Below the pieces are notes generated by a model, which was given only the letters and a program-made list of their open reading frames with translations, did no database searches and had not been told where the DNA came from. This document shows positions 22,654-29,853 of a stretch of 34,944 nt of DNA, piece after piece. Made by a program: the position numbers and the translations under genes. Location of the stretch: NCBI GenBank assembly GCA_030679805.1, contig JAUXST010000440.1:1-34944 (forward strand), written 5' to 3'. The first letter of the stretch is position 1; every line of letters begins with the position of its first letter. The DNA comes from Reyranella sp. (GTDB taxonomy: Bacteria > Pseudomonadota > Alphaproteobacteria > Reyranellales > Reyranellaceae).

Positions 22654-23610
22654 CTACGACAGCAGTCCGATTTCCCTGTAGTACGCCTCGACCCCGGGCT
22701 GCAGCGTGGCCGGCCGCGGCAACGCCGCCAGCGTGTTCTTCGCCGTCGTTTCGGAGAGTTGCTTGGACTCCAAGTGAAGGCGCTCGACCTTGTACAGTGC
22801 GGTAGCCACCCGATGGCCGACACTGTCGGGAAGTCCGGGCCGCGCCAGCACGAAACTCCACGAACCCACCGTCGGAAGCGGATCGGCTTGGCCGCGATAC
22901 ATGCCGGCTGGTACGGTGAGCCTCCTCAGGAATCCGTACTTGGCCAGAATGCGATCGATCTCACCGGCATCGGGCACGAGGAAGCGGGCGCCAGCCGGAC
23001 TGTTGGAGACGGCGACGAAGCCGGGCCAGCGGATGCCGCCACCCCACAGGGCGGCGACCTGGCCATCGATGACCATCGCCGGGCCGTCGCCGGCGCGATC
23101 GAGATAAACCGACTCGAAATCCTTCTCGGGATCGAGACCGATGCCGTCCACCACGGTGCGGCCCAGGATGACGAGATCGGAGCCGCGCGCGCCCCAGGCG
23201 ATGGGTTGGCCCTTGAGATCGGCGATGCGGCGATAGCGACTGTCGGCCCGCACGACGAACATGCCGGGCGAAGCGTACATGGCGGTGACGACCTTGAGCG
23301 CGGTCGGCGGCCGGCCGGCGCCCGTGAAGACCTCCTGCGCCACCTCACCCTGCACCAGCGCGAGGTCGAGCTTGCCTTGCTCGAGCAACGGCACGTTCTC
23401 GGTGCTGCCCTTGGTGTTGACCTCGTCGATCTCGAGCGTCGGGTCGGCGCCCCTCAGCGCACTGATGAAAGCCGCGCCATAGACCGGGAAGCCGCCGCCA
23501 GCGGTCGCCGTGCCGAGCTTGAGCGGCGGCGTCTGCGCGCCCGCCGGTACGTTCATGAGCGCAAGTCCAGGCAAGGCTGCAAGCAGGGAGCGGCGTCCGA
23601 AGCGGGGCAT
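22654..23610 (-). CDS. TAXI family TRAP transporter solute-binding subunit
   Basis: 318 aa with signal peptide; LKLGTATAGGGFPVYGAAFISALRGADPTLEIDEVNTKGSTENVPLLEQGKLDLALVQGEVA. Confidence 0.9.
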   Translation of the reverse strand: MPRFGRRSLLAALPGLALMNVPAGAQTPPLKLGTATAGGGFPVYGAAFISALRGADPTLEIDEVNTKGSTENVPLLEQGKLDLALVQGEVAQEVFTGAGRPPTALKVVTAMYASPGMFVVRADSRYRRIADLKGQPIAWGARGSDLVILGRTVVDGIGLDPEKDFESVYLDRAGDGPAMVIDGQVAALWGGGIRWPGFVAVSNSPAGARFLVPDAGEIDRILAKYGFLRRLTVPAGMYRGQADPLPTVGSWSFVLARPGLPDSVGHRVATALYKVERLHLESKQLSETTAKNTLAALPRPATLQPGVEAYYREIGLLS

Positions 23611-23619
23611 GATTTCATT

Positions 23620-24408
23620 CTAGGGCCTTACGCCGGGTGATTCGAGCATCATGCCCCGAGCCCGGTCCATGAGGAAAAGATCGAGCATGACGTATTCCGG
23701 AGCGTCGTAGGCGTAGGGCTCGGCCCGGATGCCGGCAAGGCAATTGCGCAGGCGGCGTTTCAGCGAGCCCAGCGTCTGCCATTCGAGCCGGTAGATCGGA
23801 TAGCCGGTGGGATGGGCCTCCGGGATCGTCACGCCGGCGAGCTTCTTGCCGGCATTGTCGTCGTGGCAGATCGCGCAGGACAGGTTGAGCTGGCCCTGGC
23901 GGGCCTGCCAGAGTTTCTCGCCTCGGGCGCGGAACGGCGCGAGTCGCGGATCGTCGGGCGGCGTGATCGGGAAGCCTCGCGACTGGTGTGCGACGTAGGC
24001 CGTGAGCGCCAGCAGCTCCCGGCTTTCGGAGGTCAGACTCCCGGCCCGCTGGTTGGCGGTGCGGCAGAGATCGATCCGGCCCTCGAGATCGACAGGCGCG
24101 TCGGCGCCTTTCGGGATGGCGGGATAGCGCGCGGCGACGCCCTTCATGCTGGCGACGCTGCCGTGGCAATCGGCGCAGGACTTTCCTGACGCGCCAGAGG
24201 CCTTGCCCCACAGCTCGCCGCCCAGCTGGACGAAAAGCATGCCAGGATTGGCCGTGTCGTCGTCCTGCATCTTCTGCAACACCCCGCCCATGTCCTGGGT
24301 GCCGGACCGGCGCTTGTCGGTTCCTCCCTTGTCAGCCATGCCTTGGGCCAGTGCGTAGGAGGCGATGAAGACGATCGCCAGCCCGATGCCGAAATGCCGC
24401 GCTATCAT
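23620..24408 (-). CDS. soxA: Sulfur oxidation c-type cytochrome SoxA (two CxxCH motifs)
   Basis: 262 aa from ATG 24408; signal peptide; SCADCHGS and SCAICHDD heme motifs; DLCRTANQRAGSLTSESRELLALTAYVAHQSRGFP; adjacent to soxZ (ATGA overlap). Confidence 0.9.
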   Translation of the reverse strand: MIARHFGIGLAIVFIASYALAQGMADKGGTDKRRSGTQDMGGVLQKMQDDDTANPGMLFVQLGGELWGKASGASGKSCADCHGSVASMKGVAARYPAIPKGADAPVDLEGRIDLCRTANQRAGSLTSESRELLALTAYVAHQSRGFPITPPDDPRLAPFRARGEKLWQARQGQLNLSCAICHDDNAGKKLAGVTIPEAHPTGYPIYRLEWQTLGSLKRRLRNCLAGIRAEPYAYDAPEYVMLDLFLMDRARGMMLESPGVRP

Positions 24409-24725
24409 TCGACGGCGATAGCGACCCGCTCCTCGACGACGAAGCCTTCGTCGCCGGTCCAGCGCAGGCCGACCGTGCCGCTCTCGCTCGCCACGGCGAA
24501 GAAGGAGACGAACGGATTGGCGGCGATCGCGGGCGACATCTCCATGTCGAAGATCTCGGTGCCGTTCCACGTCGCGGTGAAGCGCTCGATGATGTTGCGC
24601 GGAATGATCCGGCCATTCGGGCCCGGACGGAAGCCGGTCTCCATGGGATGAAGGATCAGCGCCTTGATCTCGACGATCGAGCCGCGCTTGGCCGTCTTCG
24701 GCGCGTTGACCAGGACGTTGGCCAT
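24405..24725 (-). CDS. soxZ: Thiosulfate oxidation carrier complex protein SoxZ
   Basis: 106 aa; VEIKALILHPMETGFRPGPNGRIIPRNIIERFTATWNGTEIFDMEMSPAIAANPFVSFFAVA. Confidence 0.94.
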   Translation of the reverse strand: MANVLVNAPKTAKRGSIVEIKALILHPMETGFRPGPNGRIIPRNIIERFTATWNGTEIFDMEMSPAIAANPFVSFFAVASESGTVGLRWTGDEGFVVEERVAIAVE

Positions 24726-25180
24726 CAGGTCGCCTCATCGAGGCAGGCGGCCAGCGTGACGATCACGTCGGCACTGGCGCTCCAGAACTGCCCACCTGAG
24801 GTTTCGGCGATGGCGACGATCTTCTGCGAATCGCCCAGCTTGATGCGTGTGCCGACGACGGCACGGCCATTGCGCGGCCCGAGCCGGGCGGTGAAGACGT
24901 TGGGCTGCGGGTTCTTCTCGTTGAAGACGTGAATCGCCTTGATGTAGTCGGCCTCCCTCATCGGGCTCTCGACCGACACGACCAGCGGCACGGTGCTGCC
25001 GTTCTCGACCAGCGGCGGCAGATCGAGGCTCACCCGTCCCTCGCGCACCTGGGAGGCGCCCACGACTTTGCGGATGGCGCCCGCCATGGCTTCGGGCGTC
25101 GCTGACGCGGTGCCCAAGGGCAGGACGACGATGGCCCCAATGGCGGTCGCGGTGCCGGCAAGGAAACGACGGCGGTCCAT
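24725..25180 (-). CDS. soxY: SoxY-type sulfur carrier protein with non-canonical C-terminus
   Basis: 151 aa; Tat-like signal MDRRRFLAGTATAIGAIVVLP; VPLVVSVESPMREADYIKAIHVFNEKNPQPNVFTARLGP; C-terminal TLAACLDEAT. Confidence 0.88.
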   Translation of the reverse strand: MDRRRFLAGTATAIGAIVVLPLGTASATPEAMAGAIRKVVGASQVREGRVSLDLPPLVENGSTVPLVVSVESPMREADYIKAIHVFNEKNPQPNVFTARLGPRNGRAVVGTRIKLGDSQKIVAIAETSGGQFWSASADVIVTLAACLDEAT

Positions 25181-25633
25181 TCAATCCTTCAAGGTTGCGA
25201 GATAGGCCACGACATCCTCGATCTGCGCGGCCGACAGGATGGTCTTGCCCTGGAAATTGCGGGCGACCCTCCGCAGGCCGCTCGTCCGATAGTAGGGCGG
25301 CATGATCGTGTCGGCATTGAGACGCGAGCCGTCGACGATGCGCAGCCGCAACTGGCCCTCCGACCAGCGCGACCCCGCGCCGGCAAGGTTCGGCGCCAGG
25401 TCGCCCTGGAAGCGCTCCTCGACGATCGGACCGGAGTGGCAAAGCAGGCAAAGACCGACGCCGCGGTTGGCCACGATTGCGCGGCCGCGGGCGGCGGCGC
25501 CCGGCTGGCCGGTGAGCGAGGCGGGAATGGCGTCGCCAACAATCTGTGGGGCGACCTGGAGGTCGACTTGCTGGGCGACCGCAGCCGGTGCGGCGAGAGC
25601 CAGGGCGGCGGCAAGCAGGCCCGGGCGCGACAT
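25181..25633 (-). CDS. soxX: Sulfur oxidation c-type cytochrome SoxX
   Basis: 150 aa; signal peptide; GRAIVANRGVGLCLLCHSGPIVEERFQGDLAPNLAGAGSRWSEGQLRLRIVDGSRLNADTIMPPYY. Confidence 0.9.
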   Translation of the reverse strand: MSRPGLLAAALALAAPAAVAQQVDLQVAPQIVGDAIPASLTGQPGAAARGRAIVANRGVGLCLLCHSGPIVEERFQGDLAPNLAGAGSRWSEGQLRLRIVDGSRLNADTIMPPYYRTSGLRRVARNFQGKTILSAAQIEDVVAYLATLKD

Positions 25634-25636
25634 CGC

Positions 25637-26899
25637 TCAGCCGAAGGTTTCGGCGGTGACGGTACGGAACCAACTCGAGGCATAAAGCGCCTCCTGGCCG
25701 CGCAAGCCGCCCACCGCGCTGAGCGCGCTCACGCCGCCCGCTCCCGGAACCTCCGCGAGCAGGCCCTTGTCCGGCCGGTAGACGCCGGCGATCGAGATGC
25801 CGTAGTCGGCGGCCAGCAGGCTGTAGCAGGTATTGATCAGCAGCGGCTGCTGTGGCGCGCGGCCGGCCAGCAGCTCGACGATGGCCGCGGCACAGACCTT
25901 TGCCTGCGCATTGGCCGCGAACGCCGACTTGGGCATCGCCCCCATGATGGCGGCATCGCCCAGCACATGGATGCCACGCTGCAGGGTCGACTCGAACGCC
26001 ACCGGCTCGACCGGGCACCATCCGGTGCGGTCGGCGACGCCCGCCTTGGCGGCGATGACGCCGGCCTTCTGCGGTGGGATGACATTGGCGACGTCGGCCT
26101 TGTGGCTGCCGAACTCGGTGACGAGCGTGAGCGTGGCCGGATCGACCGAGGTCACCTTGCCGCCCTTGCTGAGCGGCACCCACTCGATCATGCCGGGATA
26201 GAGTTGGTCCCAGCCGTTCTGGAACAGGCGCTGCTTGGAGAAGGTGTCCTTGGAGTCGAGCAGCAGGAGCTTGGATTTCGGCTTCCAGATGCTCAGCCAG
26301 TAGGCGATCAGGCTGGCGCGCTCGTAGGGACCCGGCGGACAGCGAAACGGATTGGGTGGCGACGACATCACGACCAAGCCGCCGTCCTTCATGTCCTGGA
26401 GCTGCTGGCGCAGCAGCACGGTCTGGGCACCCGCCTTCCAGGCGTGCGGCATCTTCTGGGCCGCCGCTTCGTCGTAGCCGGGGATCGCTCCCCAGTCGAA
26501 GTCGATGCCGGGCGAAAGCACCAGCCGGTCCCATGAGAGCTTCGTGCCGTCGGCCAGAGTCACGGTCCGCGCGGCGGCATCGACCGCGGTCGCCGACGTT
26601 TCGGCGACGGTGACGCCAGCCCCTTTGATGCCGTCGTAGCGGAACTGCTGCTGGGAGATCTCGCGCAGATTGGCGAGCACGGAGTTGCTGAAAGGACAGG
26701 CCGTGTAGATCGGGTTGGGCTCAACCAGGGTGACACTGAGCTTGGGGTCGAGCTGCTTCAGCGTGCGCGCCGCGATGGCGCCGCCGAAGCCGCCGCCCAC
26801 CACGACGACGCGGCCCGCGCCTTGGGCCGAGGCGAGCGATGGGGCCGCGAGACCGGCAGCGCCGGCGAGCTTGAGAAAGGTCCGACGCGTTGCCATCAC
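25637..26899 (-). CDS. soxF: Flavocytochrome c sulfide dehydrogenase flavoprotein-like (SoxF/FccB)
   Basis: 420 aa; Tat-like N-terminus MMATRRTFLKLAGAAGLAAPSLASAQG, VVVVGGGFGGAIAARTLKQLDPKLSVTLVEPNPIYTACPFSNSVL. Confidence 0.88.
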   Translation of the reverse strand: MMATRRTFLKLAGAAGLAAPSLASAQGAGRVVVVGGGFGGAIAARTLKQLDPKLSVTLVEPNPIYTACPFSNSVLANLREISQQQFRYDGIKGAGVTVAETSATAVDAAARTVTLADGTKLSWDRLVLSPGIDFDWGAIPGYDEAAAQKMPHAWKAGAQTVLLRQQLQDMKDGGLVVMSSPPNPFRCPPGPYERASLIAYWLSIWKPKSKLLLLDSKDTFSKQRLFQNGWDQLYPGMIEWVPLSKGGKVTSVDPATLTLVTEFGSHKADVANVIPPQKAGVIAAKAGVADRTGWCPVEPVAFESTLQRGIHVLGDAAIMGAMPKSAFAANAQAKVCAAAIVELLAGRAPQQPLLINTCYSLLAADYGISIAGVYRPDKGLLAEVPGAGGVSALSAVGGLRGQEALYASSWFRTVTAETFG

Positions 26900-27193
26900 C
26901 TACTCCGGTTGGGCCCCGAACCAGGCCGCGATCGCTTCGGTCTGCTGGTCGTCGAAGCCCTTGGCGATGCGCCCCATCACGCTGGAGGGCCACGCCCCGC
27001 TTCGGTACTCACGCATGAAGGTGACGATGTCGGCCACTTTGCGGCCGGCGATCCGCGGAATGACGGAGTCGGTCACCTTCATGGGCGCATGACAACCGGT
27101 GCACGAACTTGCACCCGGCGGAGCATCGGCCGCCTGCGCCGGGCCGCCCGACAACAATGCCAGGGCCAGCACCGACAACAGTAATCGACCCAT
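26900..27193 (-). CDS. Small c-type cytochrome (SoxE/FccA-like)
   Basis: 97 aa; signal peptide; SCTGCHAPMKVTDSVIPRIAGRKVADIVTFMREYRSG. Confidence 0.85.
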   Translation of the reverse strand: MGRLLLSVLALALLSGGPAQAADAPPGASSCTGCHAPMKVTDSVIPRIAGRKVADIVTFMREYRSGAWPSSVMGRIAKGFDDQQTEAIAAWFGAQPE

Positions 27194-29389
27194 TTACGCG
27201 CCTTTCTTCAGCTCGTGATGCATCAGCGGCAGGTTGCGTACACGCTTGCCCGTGGCTTTGGCAATCGCGTTCAGGACCGCGGGGGCGGCCACCGCGATGG
27301 TGGGCTCGCCGACGCCTCCCCAGAAATCCCCGGTCGGGACCAGCACGGTCTCGACCCGGGGCATCTCGTCCATGCGCATCACGTTGTAGCTGTCGAAATT
27401 GGTTTGCTCGACGGCACCGTCCTTGACGGTGATCTCGCCGTAGAGCGCCGCCGACAGGCCATAGACGAATGAGCCCGCGACCTGGCGCTCGATCTGCGCC
27501 GGGTTGACGACATGGCCGGGATTGGTGGCCGCCGTGATCTTGTGGATTTTCAGCGCGCCTTCGGGACTGACCGAAACCTCGGCGACGCCGGCCACGTAGC
27601 TGCCGTAGCCCATGACCTGCGAGATGCCGTGGAAATGGCCGGCCGGCAGTGGCTTGCCGTAGCCTGCCTTGTCGGCGGCGGCCTTCAGCACCGCAGCCCA
27701 CTTGGGCTTCAGCAGCTTCAGCCGGAACGCCAGTGGGTCTTGGCCGGCGGCGGCCGCCAGCTCGTCCATGAAGCATTCCATGTAGACGGCGTTCTGGTTC
27801 ACGTTCACGCCACGCCAGAAGCCCGGCGTGATGTGCGGGTTGCGCATCGCATGGTCGATCAGCAGGTTCGGCACGTTGTAGCCGTAGGCTGCCTCGACGC
27901 CGCTCGCCATCAGGCCCTGGAACGTCGCGGGGTCCATGCCGTTCACCAGGTTCCCCGGCAGCAGCGAGGCCAGGATCGACTGGCCGGAGATGCGGACCCG
28001 CAGTCCGACCAGGTTGCCCTGGGCATCGAGGCCGCCCGTGAGCTTGCACATCGTGATCGGATGATACTGGCAGTGGGTCATGTCTTCTTCGCGCGACCAG
28101 ATCAGCTTGACCGGCGTGCCGGGCATCTCCTTGGCAACCAGGACGGCCTGACGGACATAGTCCGAGCGGCCGCGCCGGCCGAAGCCACCGCCCAGCATGA
28201 GCTTGATGACATCGCATTTGGCGACCGGCAGGCCGGACGCCTCGGACGCGGCGGCCAGCGCCGCCTCGCCGTTCTGCGTGCCGCACCAGACCTCGCACTT
28301 GTCGGCCGTGACGCGCGCCGTGGCGTTCATCGGCTCCATGGTGACGTGGTGCTGGTAGGGAAAGCTATAGGTCGCCTCGACCTTCTTGGCGGCTCCGTCG
28401 ATGGCGGCCTTGGCGTCACCCACCTTGTTGCCGACGAAGGCTTCGGGCGCGTCGAGGCCTTCCGTCAGCAGGGCGGCGATGGTCTCGCTCGAGACCTTGC
28501 CGAGGTCGCCGATGTCCCACTCGGCGGGAAGTGCCGCGAGTGCGGTGCGGGCGTTCCAGTAGGTATCGGCCACGACCACGACGGCATTGCCGTCGATCGC
28601 CACGACCTTCTTCACACCGGGCATCTTCTCGACCCTGGCGGCATCGAAGCTCTTGAGCTTCCCGCCGATCACCGGACAGGCGCGCACGGTGGCCACGAGC
28701 ATGCCGGGCATCGTGAAGTCGATGCCGTAGATCTGCTTGCCGGTGACCTTGTCGAGCGTGTCGAGCCGCTTCACCGGCTTGCCGGCGATCTTCCAGTCCT
28801 TGGGGTCCTTGAGCTTCACCCCCTTGGGCGGCTCGATCTGGGCCGCTGCCGCTGCGACCGCACCGTAGGTGAGCTTCTTGCCCGAGGGCTTGTGGGTGAT
28901 GACGCTACTGGCAGCACTGCACTCCACCGCCGGCACCTTCCACTGCGCCGCAGCCGCGGCGATCAGCATCTCGCGCGCCATGGCGCCGCCTTCGCGGACA
29001 TACTGGTTGCTCTCGCGGATGCCGCGGCTGCCGCCGGTCGAGAAGTTCTTCCAGACGCGGCCACGCTTGAGGTTCTCGCCCGGCGTCGGATATTCGGTCG
29101 TGACCTTCTTCCAATCGCACTCCAGTTCCTCGGCGACGAGCTGGGCGAGGCCCGTCAGCGTGCCCTGGCCCATTTCGGAGCGGGCGATGCGGATCACAAC
29201 CTTGTCGTCGGGCATGACCACGACCCAGGCGTTGAGTTCCTTGGCCTCGGCGGCATGCGCCGTCCCGAAGGTACTGAAGCCCAGCGAGAAGCCGCCGGCG
29301 ACGGCGGCGCCGCTGACGAGGAAACCCCTACGACGAAGAGAGGGGTGGCGGAGAGAGGGACGGCGGAGGGACGTCTGATGGATGGTCAT
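27194..29389 (-). CDS. Xanthine dehydrogenase family molybdopterin-binding subunit (IorB/isoquinoline 1-oxidoreductase beta-like)
   Basis: 731 aa from ATG 29389; Tat-like RRRGFLVSGAAVAGGF; IRIARSEMGQGTLTGLAQLVAEELECDW; VIKLMLGGGFGRRGRSDYVRQAVLVAKE; FWRGVNVNQNAVYMECFMDELA. Confidence 0.92.
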   Translation of the reverse strand: MTIHQTSLRRPSLRHPSLRRRGFLVSGAAVAGGFSLGFSTFGTAHAAEAKELNAWVVVMPDDKVVIRIARSEMGQGTLTGLAQLVAEELECDWKKVTTEYPTPGENLKRGRVWKNFSTGGSRGIRESNQYVREGGAMAREMLIAAAAAQWKVPAVECSAASSVITHKPSGKKLTYGAVAAAAAQIEPPKGVKLKDPKDWKIAGKPVKRLDTLDKVTGKQIYGIDFTMPGMLVATVRACPVIGGKLKSFDAARVEKMPGVKKVVAIDGNAVVVVADTYWNARTALAALPAEWDIGDLGKVSSETIAALLTEGLDAPEAFVGNKVGDAKAAIDGAAKKVEATYSFPYQHHVTMEPMNATARVTADKCEVWCGTQNGEAALAAASEASGLPVAKCDVIKLMLGGGFGRRGRSDYVRQAVLVAKEMPGTPVKLIWSREEDMTHCQYHPITMCKLTGGLDAQGNLVGLRVRISGQSILASLLPGNLVNGMDPATFQGLMASGVEAAYGYNVPNLLIDHAMRNPHITPGFWRGVNVNQNAVYMECFMDELAAAAGQDPLAFRLKLLKPKWAAVLKAAADKAGYGKPLPAGHFHGISQVMGYGSYVAGVAEVSVSPEGALKIHKITAATNPGHVVNPAQIERQVAGSFVYGLSAALYGEITVKDGAVEQTNFDSYNVMRMDEMPRVETVLVPTGDFWGGVGEPTIAVAAPAVLNAIAKATGKRVRNLPLMHHELKKGA

Positions 29390-29403: not shown

Positions 29404-29853
29404 TCAGACCTTGGCCGCGGCGTGGATGGCTTCGCGGACCTGCTGGTAGGTGCCGCAGCGACAGATGTTGGTCATGGCCGCGTCGATGTCGGCATCCGTC
29501 GGCTTGGGCTTGGCGGCGAGCAGCGCGGTGGCCGCCATGATCATGCCGCTCTGGCAGTAGCCGCATTGCGGGACGTCGAGTTCGACCCAGGCCTTCTGGA
29601 TCTTGGTGAGCGTGCCGTTGGCGGCCAGCGCCTCGATGGTCACGATCTTGCGGTTGCCGACGGAGTTGACGGGAACCTGGCACGAGCGGGTCGCCACGCC
29701 GTCGATGTGGACGGTGCAGGCGCCGCACTGGGCGATGCCACAGCCATATTTCGTGCCGGTGAGATTGAGTTGCTCGCGCAGGACCCACAGCAGCGGCGTA
29801 CGCGGATCGGCACTATGGTTGAGCGCCTTGCCGTTGACGTTAAGGACAGCCAT
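29404..29853 (-). CDS. (2Fe-2S)-binding subunit of molybdenum hydroxylase (IorA-like)
   Basis: 149 aa; [20 protein letters not shown] and [16 protein letters not shown]...[16 protein letters not shown] iron-sulfur motifs. Confidence 0.95.

Follow-up and report, generated by a model that had tools for sequence, protein, structure and literature searches.

Genes for SoxY are commonly taken as a marker of thiosulfate oxidation. A locus in Reyranella sp. raises the question of what this carrier serves when its C-terminal arm departs from GGCGG and no gene for the thiosulfohydrolase SoxB lies nearby. The stretch analysed here, called the window, comprises positions 1 to 34,944 of contig JAUXST010000440.1 (assembly GCA_030679805.1; 34,944 nucleotides). 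An initial annotation had described the arm as non-canonical and proposed that it should change access to the active sites of SoxAX and SoxB.

The carrier arm and its family

The soxY reading frame ends in DVIVTLAACLDEAT, the residues before the stop codon being ...SADVIVTLAACLDEAT, and the arm cysteine is Cys146 within VTLAACLDEAT. A frameshift hiding a GGCGG end is excluded, because the TGA stop of soxY overlaps the ATG of soxZ (TGATG) and homologues from many genomes share the tail; the unusual C-terminus is thus confirmed. Beyond its Pfam match (Table 1), the protein scores above the curated cut-off of NCBIfam TIGR04487, 'SoxY-related AACIE arm protein' (195.6 bits vs 172), and below that of the true-SoxY model TIGR04488 (103.7 bits vs 125). 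Where the true thiosulfate SoxY carries GGCGG, the window protein reads AACLDEAT, which has the AAC-x-acid form of TIGR04487. Its AlphaFold model resembles SoxY of 2oxg, 2ox5, 2nnc and 4uwq in a Foldseek comparison, and residues 145-151, cysteine included, are predicted to form a flexible arm (pLDDT <50).

The tail is not the novelty that it had seemed, since TIGR04487 already names it and public records bear that name; those of Neorhizobium galegae pNgVX and Methylobacterium sp. NMS14P have the same gene order. Judged by its sequence, the protein is of a known kind with a catalogued arm type: it shares the AAC-x-[ED] arm of the family, here AACLDE, and shows no difference from it. In the open-access literature we found neither a function nor a partner enzyme described for TIGR04487, no biochemical data for any SoxY with an AACIE arm, and no paper linking AACIE SoxY or SoxYZ with IorAB or xanthine dehydrogenase. 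The most extensive SoxY survey that we found discarded every sequence that has no GGC motif (PMC11237559), and the AACIE clade was therefore left out.

The 168 distinct SoxY sequences collected divide into 133 with an xAC tail and 35 with a GGC tail. The residue before the cysteine is Ala in all 133 of the former and Gly in all 35 of the latter; the second residue after it is Glu or Asp in 127/133 xAC sequences, and none of the 133 has Gly directly after it. This pattern indicates that the xAC tail is not a matter of chance and that the arm is strongly constrained rather than drifting. In a tree computed with the tail columns and one row (L251) left out, the xAC sequences are split from the rest by a branch with 93/95 support, slightly under the threshold for a firm result, so that the AAC-type tail marks a single SoxY clade, a point that the initial annotation had proposed to test.

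More divergent tails (GACVED with about 35 further residues, GACS, GACEGLGFTY) likewise occur without SoxB nearby. Several of these proteins adjoin an IorAB of 40-50% identity, and the pairing of the xAC arm with IorAB therefore extends beyond TIGR04487. In L262, L263 and L264 the arm reads GACVED or GACVEE, is followed by a C-terminal extension of 20-40 residues, and the gene adjoins IorAB, SoxZ, flavocytochrome c sulfide dehydrogenase (FCSD) and SoxXA. Four other SoxXYZA clusters (L269, L270, L278, L279) encode a SoxY ending in VTLGACS or VTIGACS and have neither SoxB nor IorAB nearby; a sulfide dehydrogenase lies near three of them, and they are possibly another SoxB-free Sox variant.

The operon

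The carrier genes belong to a tightly packed operon whose members overlap or stand a few bases apart, in the order iorA, iorB, small cytochrome c, FCSD flavoprotein, soxX, soxY, soxZ, soxA (Table 1). The same order recurs in Reyranella, Bradyrhizobium, Methylobacterium and other families.

Table 1. Genes of the operon and its downstream neighbour, with positions in the window
Feature	Position	Strand	Basis
TAXI-family TRAP solute-binding protein	22654..23610	-	TIGR02122 190.7 (cut-off 84.35)
soxA, dihaem SoxA-type cytochrome c	23620..24408	-	TIGR04484 200.7 (cut-off 110); start MIARHFG, read from sequence
soxZ, 106 aa	24405..24725	-	PF08770 93.8 bits; TIGR04490 82.6 (cut-off 76)
soxY, AACIE-arm type, 151 aa	24725..25180	-	PF13501 107 bits; TIGR04487; TAT-like signal RRRFLAG
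soxX, monohaem cytochrome c	25181..25633	-	TIGR04485 74.8 (cut-off 61)
FCSD flavoprotein subunit (FccB/SoxF-like), TAT-like signal	25637..26899	-	PF21706 161 bits, PF09242 81 bits
Small monohaem cytochrome c (CTGCH), FccA/SoxE-like by position	26900..27193	-	motif and position
IorB-like molybdopterin subunit, xanthine-oxidase family	27194..29389	-	PF02738, PF20256; start read from sequence
IorA-like 2x[2Fe-2S] subunit	29404..29853	-	PF01799, PF00111; closest solved 8gy3 chain B, small subunit

On the Sox side, both cytochromes exceed the cut-offs of their models (TIGR04484, TIGR04485), the SoxA product keeps the haem-ligating active-site cysteine in LRNC, and its closest solved structure is SoxA of 1h31. 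The locus thus resembles the canonical system of the Paracoccus pantotrophus type in having an exported SoxXA with an intact active site and an exported SoxYZ with one arm cysteine. It differs in having no SoxB and no SoxCD nearby, in reading AACLDEAT for GGCGG, and in the added molybdenum hydroxylase.

The added enzyme combines an Fe-S subunit with a molybdenum subunit that carries the catalytic Glu, as in molybdenum hydroxylases of the xanthine-oxidase family. IorB has the TAT signal RRRGFLVSG and the Glu in GVGE, and its closest solved structure is the large subunit of an aldehyde dehydrogenase (8gy3 chain C, 255 bits). With IorAB and the cytochrome-linked aldehyde dehydrogenase 8gy3 it shares two subunits, 2x[2Fe-2S] plus molybdenum, the GVGE glutamate and an export signal; it differs in that the window IorB belongs to a separate clade with residues of its own and in that the partner cytochromes are SoxX and SoxA. 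TAT-type export signals can be read from the sequences of SoxY, FCSD and IorB.

The FCSD flavoprotein contains both the central and the flavin-binding domain. Like the flavoprotein subunit of FccAB/SoxEF, it has a strong full-length match to 5n1t (460 bits), and it also matches 1fcd; unlike in those systems, it is only an optional part of the window-type operon. The small cytochrome c is optional as well (44/89 loci) and has no Pfam match and only a weak match to PdsA. The TAXI-family TRAP gene begins 9 bases downstream of soxA and is lineage-specific rather than core, being found in Reyranella-type loci and some others and lacking in most other families. Its product may import the substrate or product of the pathway in Reyranella-type loci.

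SoxB at the locus and in the genome

There is no soxB in the window and no SoxB match in the host genome (98.3% complete), which encodes a single SoxY, that of the window. Near the xAC loci SoxB was found in 0/118 cases, as against 19/22 GGC loci, and a soxC homologue within 10 kb is likewise absent from all 118, the window locus included. The absence of soxB from the neighbourhood, which the initial annotation had pointed out, therefore holds for the window and for the tail type at large. The wider expectation that the tail goes with a lack of soxB is borne out at the locus and fails at the level of the genome: of the 33 xAC genomes among Alphaproteobacteria, 7 also hold, apart from the xAC locus, a canonical sox cluster that includes soxB and a GGCGG SoxY, and the Bradyrhizobium-like and burkholderiacean genomes tested usually carry one too. 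(Genomes below the TIGR04487 cut-off are labelled xAC from the tails read in their loci.) We therefore reject an AACIE arm as a sign that soxB is missing from a genome; because some xAC genomes carry a separate soxB cluster, the rule concerns the locus.

Within Reyranellaceae, an AACIE SoxY exceeds the cut-off in 69 of 75 genomes and SoxB in 23 of 75, with one additional fragment at a contig edge. Every SoxB-bearing genome of the family has a second SoxY below the AACIE cut-off, and the twelve of these whose ends were read finish in GGCGG. Similarly, in 387 Alphaproteobacteria each of the 39 SoxB genes lies no more than about 6.5 kb from a SoxY that scores below the AACIE cut-off, and an AACIE SoxY is near none of the 39. 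That soxB was overlooked because of an incomplete genome is unlikely given the completeness of the host assembly, and other AACIE genomes in 1-6 contigs, such as G012, G049 and G011, also lack it. An extra gene such as SoxH that could supply the function of SoxB was not found among the recurrent neighbour clusters.

These counts bear on the simplest reading, an ordinary thiosulfate SoxY with a drifted arm that is served by a soxB elsewhere. SoxXA, SoxYZ and the arm cysteine are all conserved, and some carriers do have a soxB elsewhere in the genome. The host genome already contradicts this reading for the window, and 26/33 alphaproteobacterial xAC genomes likewise have no soxB; moreover, each soxB that was found is accompanied by a non-AACIE SoxY of its own, and an arm with an acidic residue two positions after the cysteine in nearly all sequences is not a drifting one. 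We regard it as extremely improbable.

A dedicated molybdenum enzyme

Within 10 kb and on the same strand, IorB accompanies 87 of the 89 xAC loci that have enough flank for the count and 0 of 22 GGC loci (Fisher 3e-21 for the contrast of loci, shared ancestry ignored), which upholds the proposed co-occurrence of the AAC-type tail with iorAB. One of the two exceptions, L167, comes from a genome that encodes a 64% identical IorB at another place. Among the 387 alphaproteobacterial genomes, xAC SoxY and the linked type of IorB occur together in 33/33 xAC genomes (p about 5e-47, shared ancestry ignored); one genome has a linked-type IorB without SoxYZ and none has an xAC SoxY without IorB. The SoxY-linked IorB proteins form one clade, separate from paralogs (SH-aLRT 100), and are 58-100% identical to the window IorB, as against at most 41% for paralogs of the same genome. 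No other protein of the operon is as well conserved as IorB (median identity 0.66, against 0.50-0.57 for the rest), and the distances of the genes are correlated with one another (SoxY-IorB r=0.71). Taken together, the locus counts, the dedicated clade and the genome-wide co-occurrence rule out iorAB as a random neighbour.

The genes for FCSD lie between iorB and soxX in 74/89 xAC loci and are absent from 15/89. Their position, and the kinship of the flavoprotein with the true sulfide dehydrogenases 5n1t and 1fcd, would suit a system for sulfide detoxification in which SoxXYZA is the acceptor and iorAB a neighbour of unrelated function. Yet IorB is kept in 14 of the 15 xAC loci without FCSD, FCSD is missing in at least six lineages that retain IorAB, and IorB is the dedicated, invariably co-occurring clade described above, all of which makes sulfide detoxification a very unlikely main role.

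Flanking genes outside the core vary and offer no common clue to the substrate. Recurrent flanks are, in some loci, TRAP/TctC solute-binding proteins and, in two, an XdhC-MocA fusion (molybdenum cofactor maturation) directly downstream of soxA (L216:11708-13204, L170:11759-13267). Small burkholderiacean genomes (L209-L212, Polynucleobacter-like) hold the core iorAB-soxXYZA without the sulfide dehydrogenase, and their IorB sequences nest among alphaproteobacterial ones, as if the unit had been transferred. One linked IorB (G263:C92:5355-7550) contains one in-frame TAA and is a possible pseudogene or assembly error.

Catalytic residues and a proposed pathway

Canonical SoxXA forms a disulfide between the sulfur substrate and the SoxY cysteine (PMC4423706). 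The SoxA active-site Cys and Arg, the haem ligands and Met of SoxX, and the SoxY Cys are invariant in both the xAC and the GGC group, and the coupling step thus looks preserved. Residues near the SoxA active site differ consistently between the groups (e.g. G193 vs Q, E176 vs K/S). Nothing here shows a block, so the suggestion of altered access to SoxAX finds no backing; a loss of recognition by SoxB is plausible. In the linked IorB clade the catalytic Glu of GVGE is invariant, and clade-specific residues include W695, T702 and I703 beside it and the cysteines C96 and C162.

We favour a SoxB-independent pathway in which an organosulfur substrate is carried on SoxY and oxidised by IorAB, and would give it an even chance. 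SoxXA would attach its substrate, a thiol or sulfane compound, oxidatively to the one cysteine in the SoxYZ arm, and the xACxE arm would bring the adduct to IorAB, the periplasmic molybdenum hydroxylase, which would oxidise it in place of the SoxB and SoxCD of canonical Sox. Electrons would exit via c-type cytochromes and, where present, FCSD would process the sulfur that reaches or departs from the carrier as sulfide or persulfide. The sequences show the family, the arm, the operon, the lack of SoxB, a seemingly obligate tie to one IorB clade, intact catalytic residues and signals for export to the periplasm; that SoxXA loads the arm and that the adduct goes on to IorAB, as well as the organosulfur nature of the substrate and the mode of release, we infer. 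Enzymes of the IorAB type hydroxylate carbon, as in aldehydes and N-heterocycles; an organic sulfur compound is therefore the most likely substrate, which is probably not thiosulfate. Against the pathway, the molybdenum family named acts on carbon, and the GAC-tailed loci L269, L270, L278 and L279 have neither IorAB nor SoxB nearby.

Evidence against it also comes from G052, a complete one-contig genome of the Reyranella family and of the same genus as the window. Here (L261, G052:C1:2346001-2366000) iorA-iorB-soxX-soxA are intact and adjacent, and soxY, soxZ and FCSD are cleanly missing. IorAB and SoxXA therefore belong together even without SoxYZ, and IorAB may be able to do without an adduct on SoxY. 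This weakens the case for a substrate that has to travel on SoxY; G052 is the sole example, and its loss may be recent.

G052 also lends itself to another reading, namely that IorAB is an ordinary periplasmic enzyme of the aldehyde-dehydrogenase kind, which SoxXA and SoxYZ assist, and that SoxY carries no substrate. SoxXA would then accept electrons from IorAB, and SoxYZ would perform thiol, persulfide or molybdenum-sulfido chemistry for it. The nearest solved relative, 8gy3, is indeed a cytochrome-linked aldehyde dehydrogenase, and PQQ alcohol and methanol dehydrogenases are found together with fused carriers of the SoxYZ kind (PMC12997753, PMC11237559). Such carriers are described by TIGR04557, the quinoprotein dehydrogenase-associated SoxYZ (SoxYZ-S2/S4), and resemble the window system in that the carrier is associated with a periplasmic enzyme that oxidises carbon, and not with SoxB. 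They are, however, SoxY-SoxZ fusions beside PQQ enzymes and SoxH, whereas the window encodes SoxY and SoxZ as two proteins, has SoxXA as well, and pairs the carrier with a molybdenum enzyme; the unfused window SoxY reaches 57.3 bits against a cut-off of 140. The SoxA thiol-coupling site and the arm cysteine, complete in every locus, and the sulfide dehydrogenase in most of them point to a sulfur substrate rather than plain electron transfer, and we consider an accessory role unlikely.

Alternatively, IorAB could replace SoxCD in an inorganic pathway, with SoxY-bound sulfane sulfur of thiosulfate or sulfide oxidised at the molybdenum and freed without SoxB. The operon does place a molybdenum enzyme and a cytochrome where canonical Sox has SoxCD; soxB and soxC are both absent from the xAC loci, and FCSD is often present. 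Set against this, the Glu of carbon hydroxylases is invariant in IorB, the core has no replacement gene for hydrolysis of the SoxB type, and we know of no precedent for sulfur oxidation by molybdenum hydroxylases of the xanthine-oxidase family. In addition, soxY2 of B. diazoefficiens is dispensable for thiosulfate oxidation (PMC5748708), and the gene content of related genomes suggests that it is of the AACIE type; this also favours the organosulfur pathway. A stand-in for SoxCD thus appears distinctly unlikely.

Implications

The new part is the genomic context, a Sox carrier system that comes with a molybdenum hydroxylase and lacks SoxB. It suggests a second use of the Sox carrier, with a dedicated molybdenum enzyme instead of SoxB. 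More tentatively than the pathway itself, we put forward a widespread and so far undescribed periplasmic route in which the dedicated molybdenum hydroxylase oxidises an organosulfur compound tethered to SoxYZ through an xACxE arm that SoxXA has loaded, which would make SoxYZ a general carrier of thiol substrates and not one of thiosulfate. Through its tie to one IorB clade, what was loosely a 'divergent SoxY' becomes a question that experiments can address, namely what the molybdenum enzyme oxidises and whether this substrate is carried on SoxY. Since the AACIE clade passes the general SoxY model and is never found beside soxB, calls of thiosulfate oxidation made from SoxY would be wrong for many Alphaproteobacteria, among them all but a few Reyranellaceae genomes.
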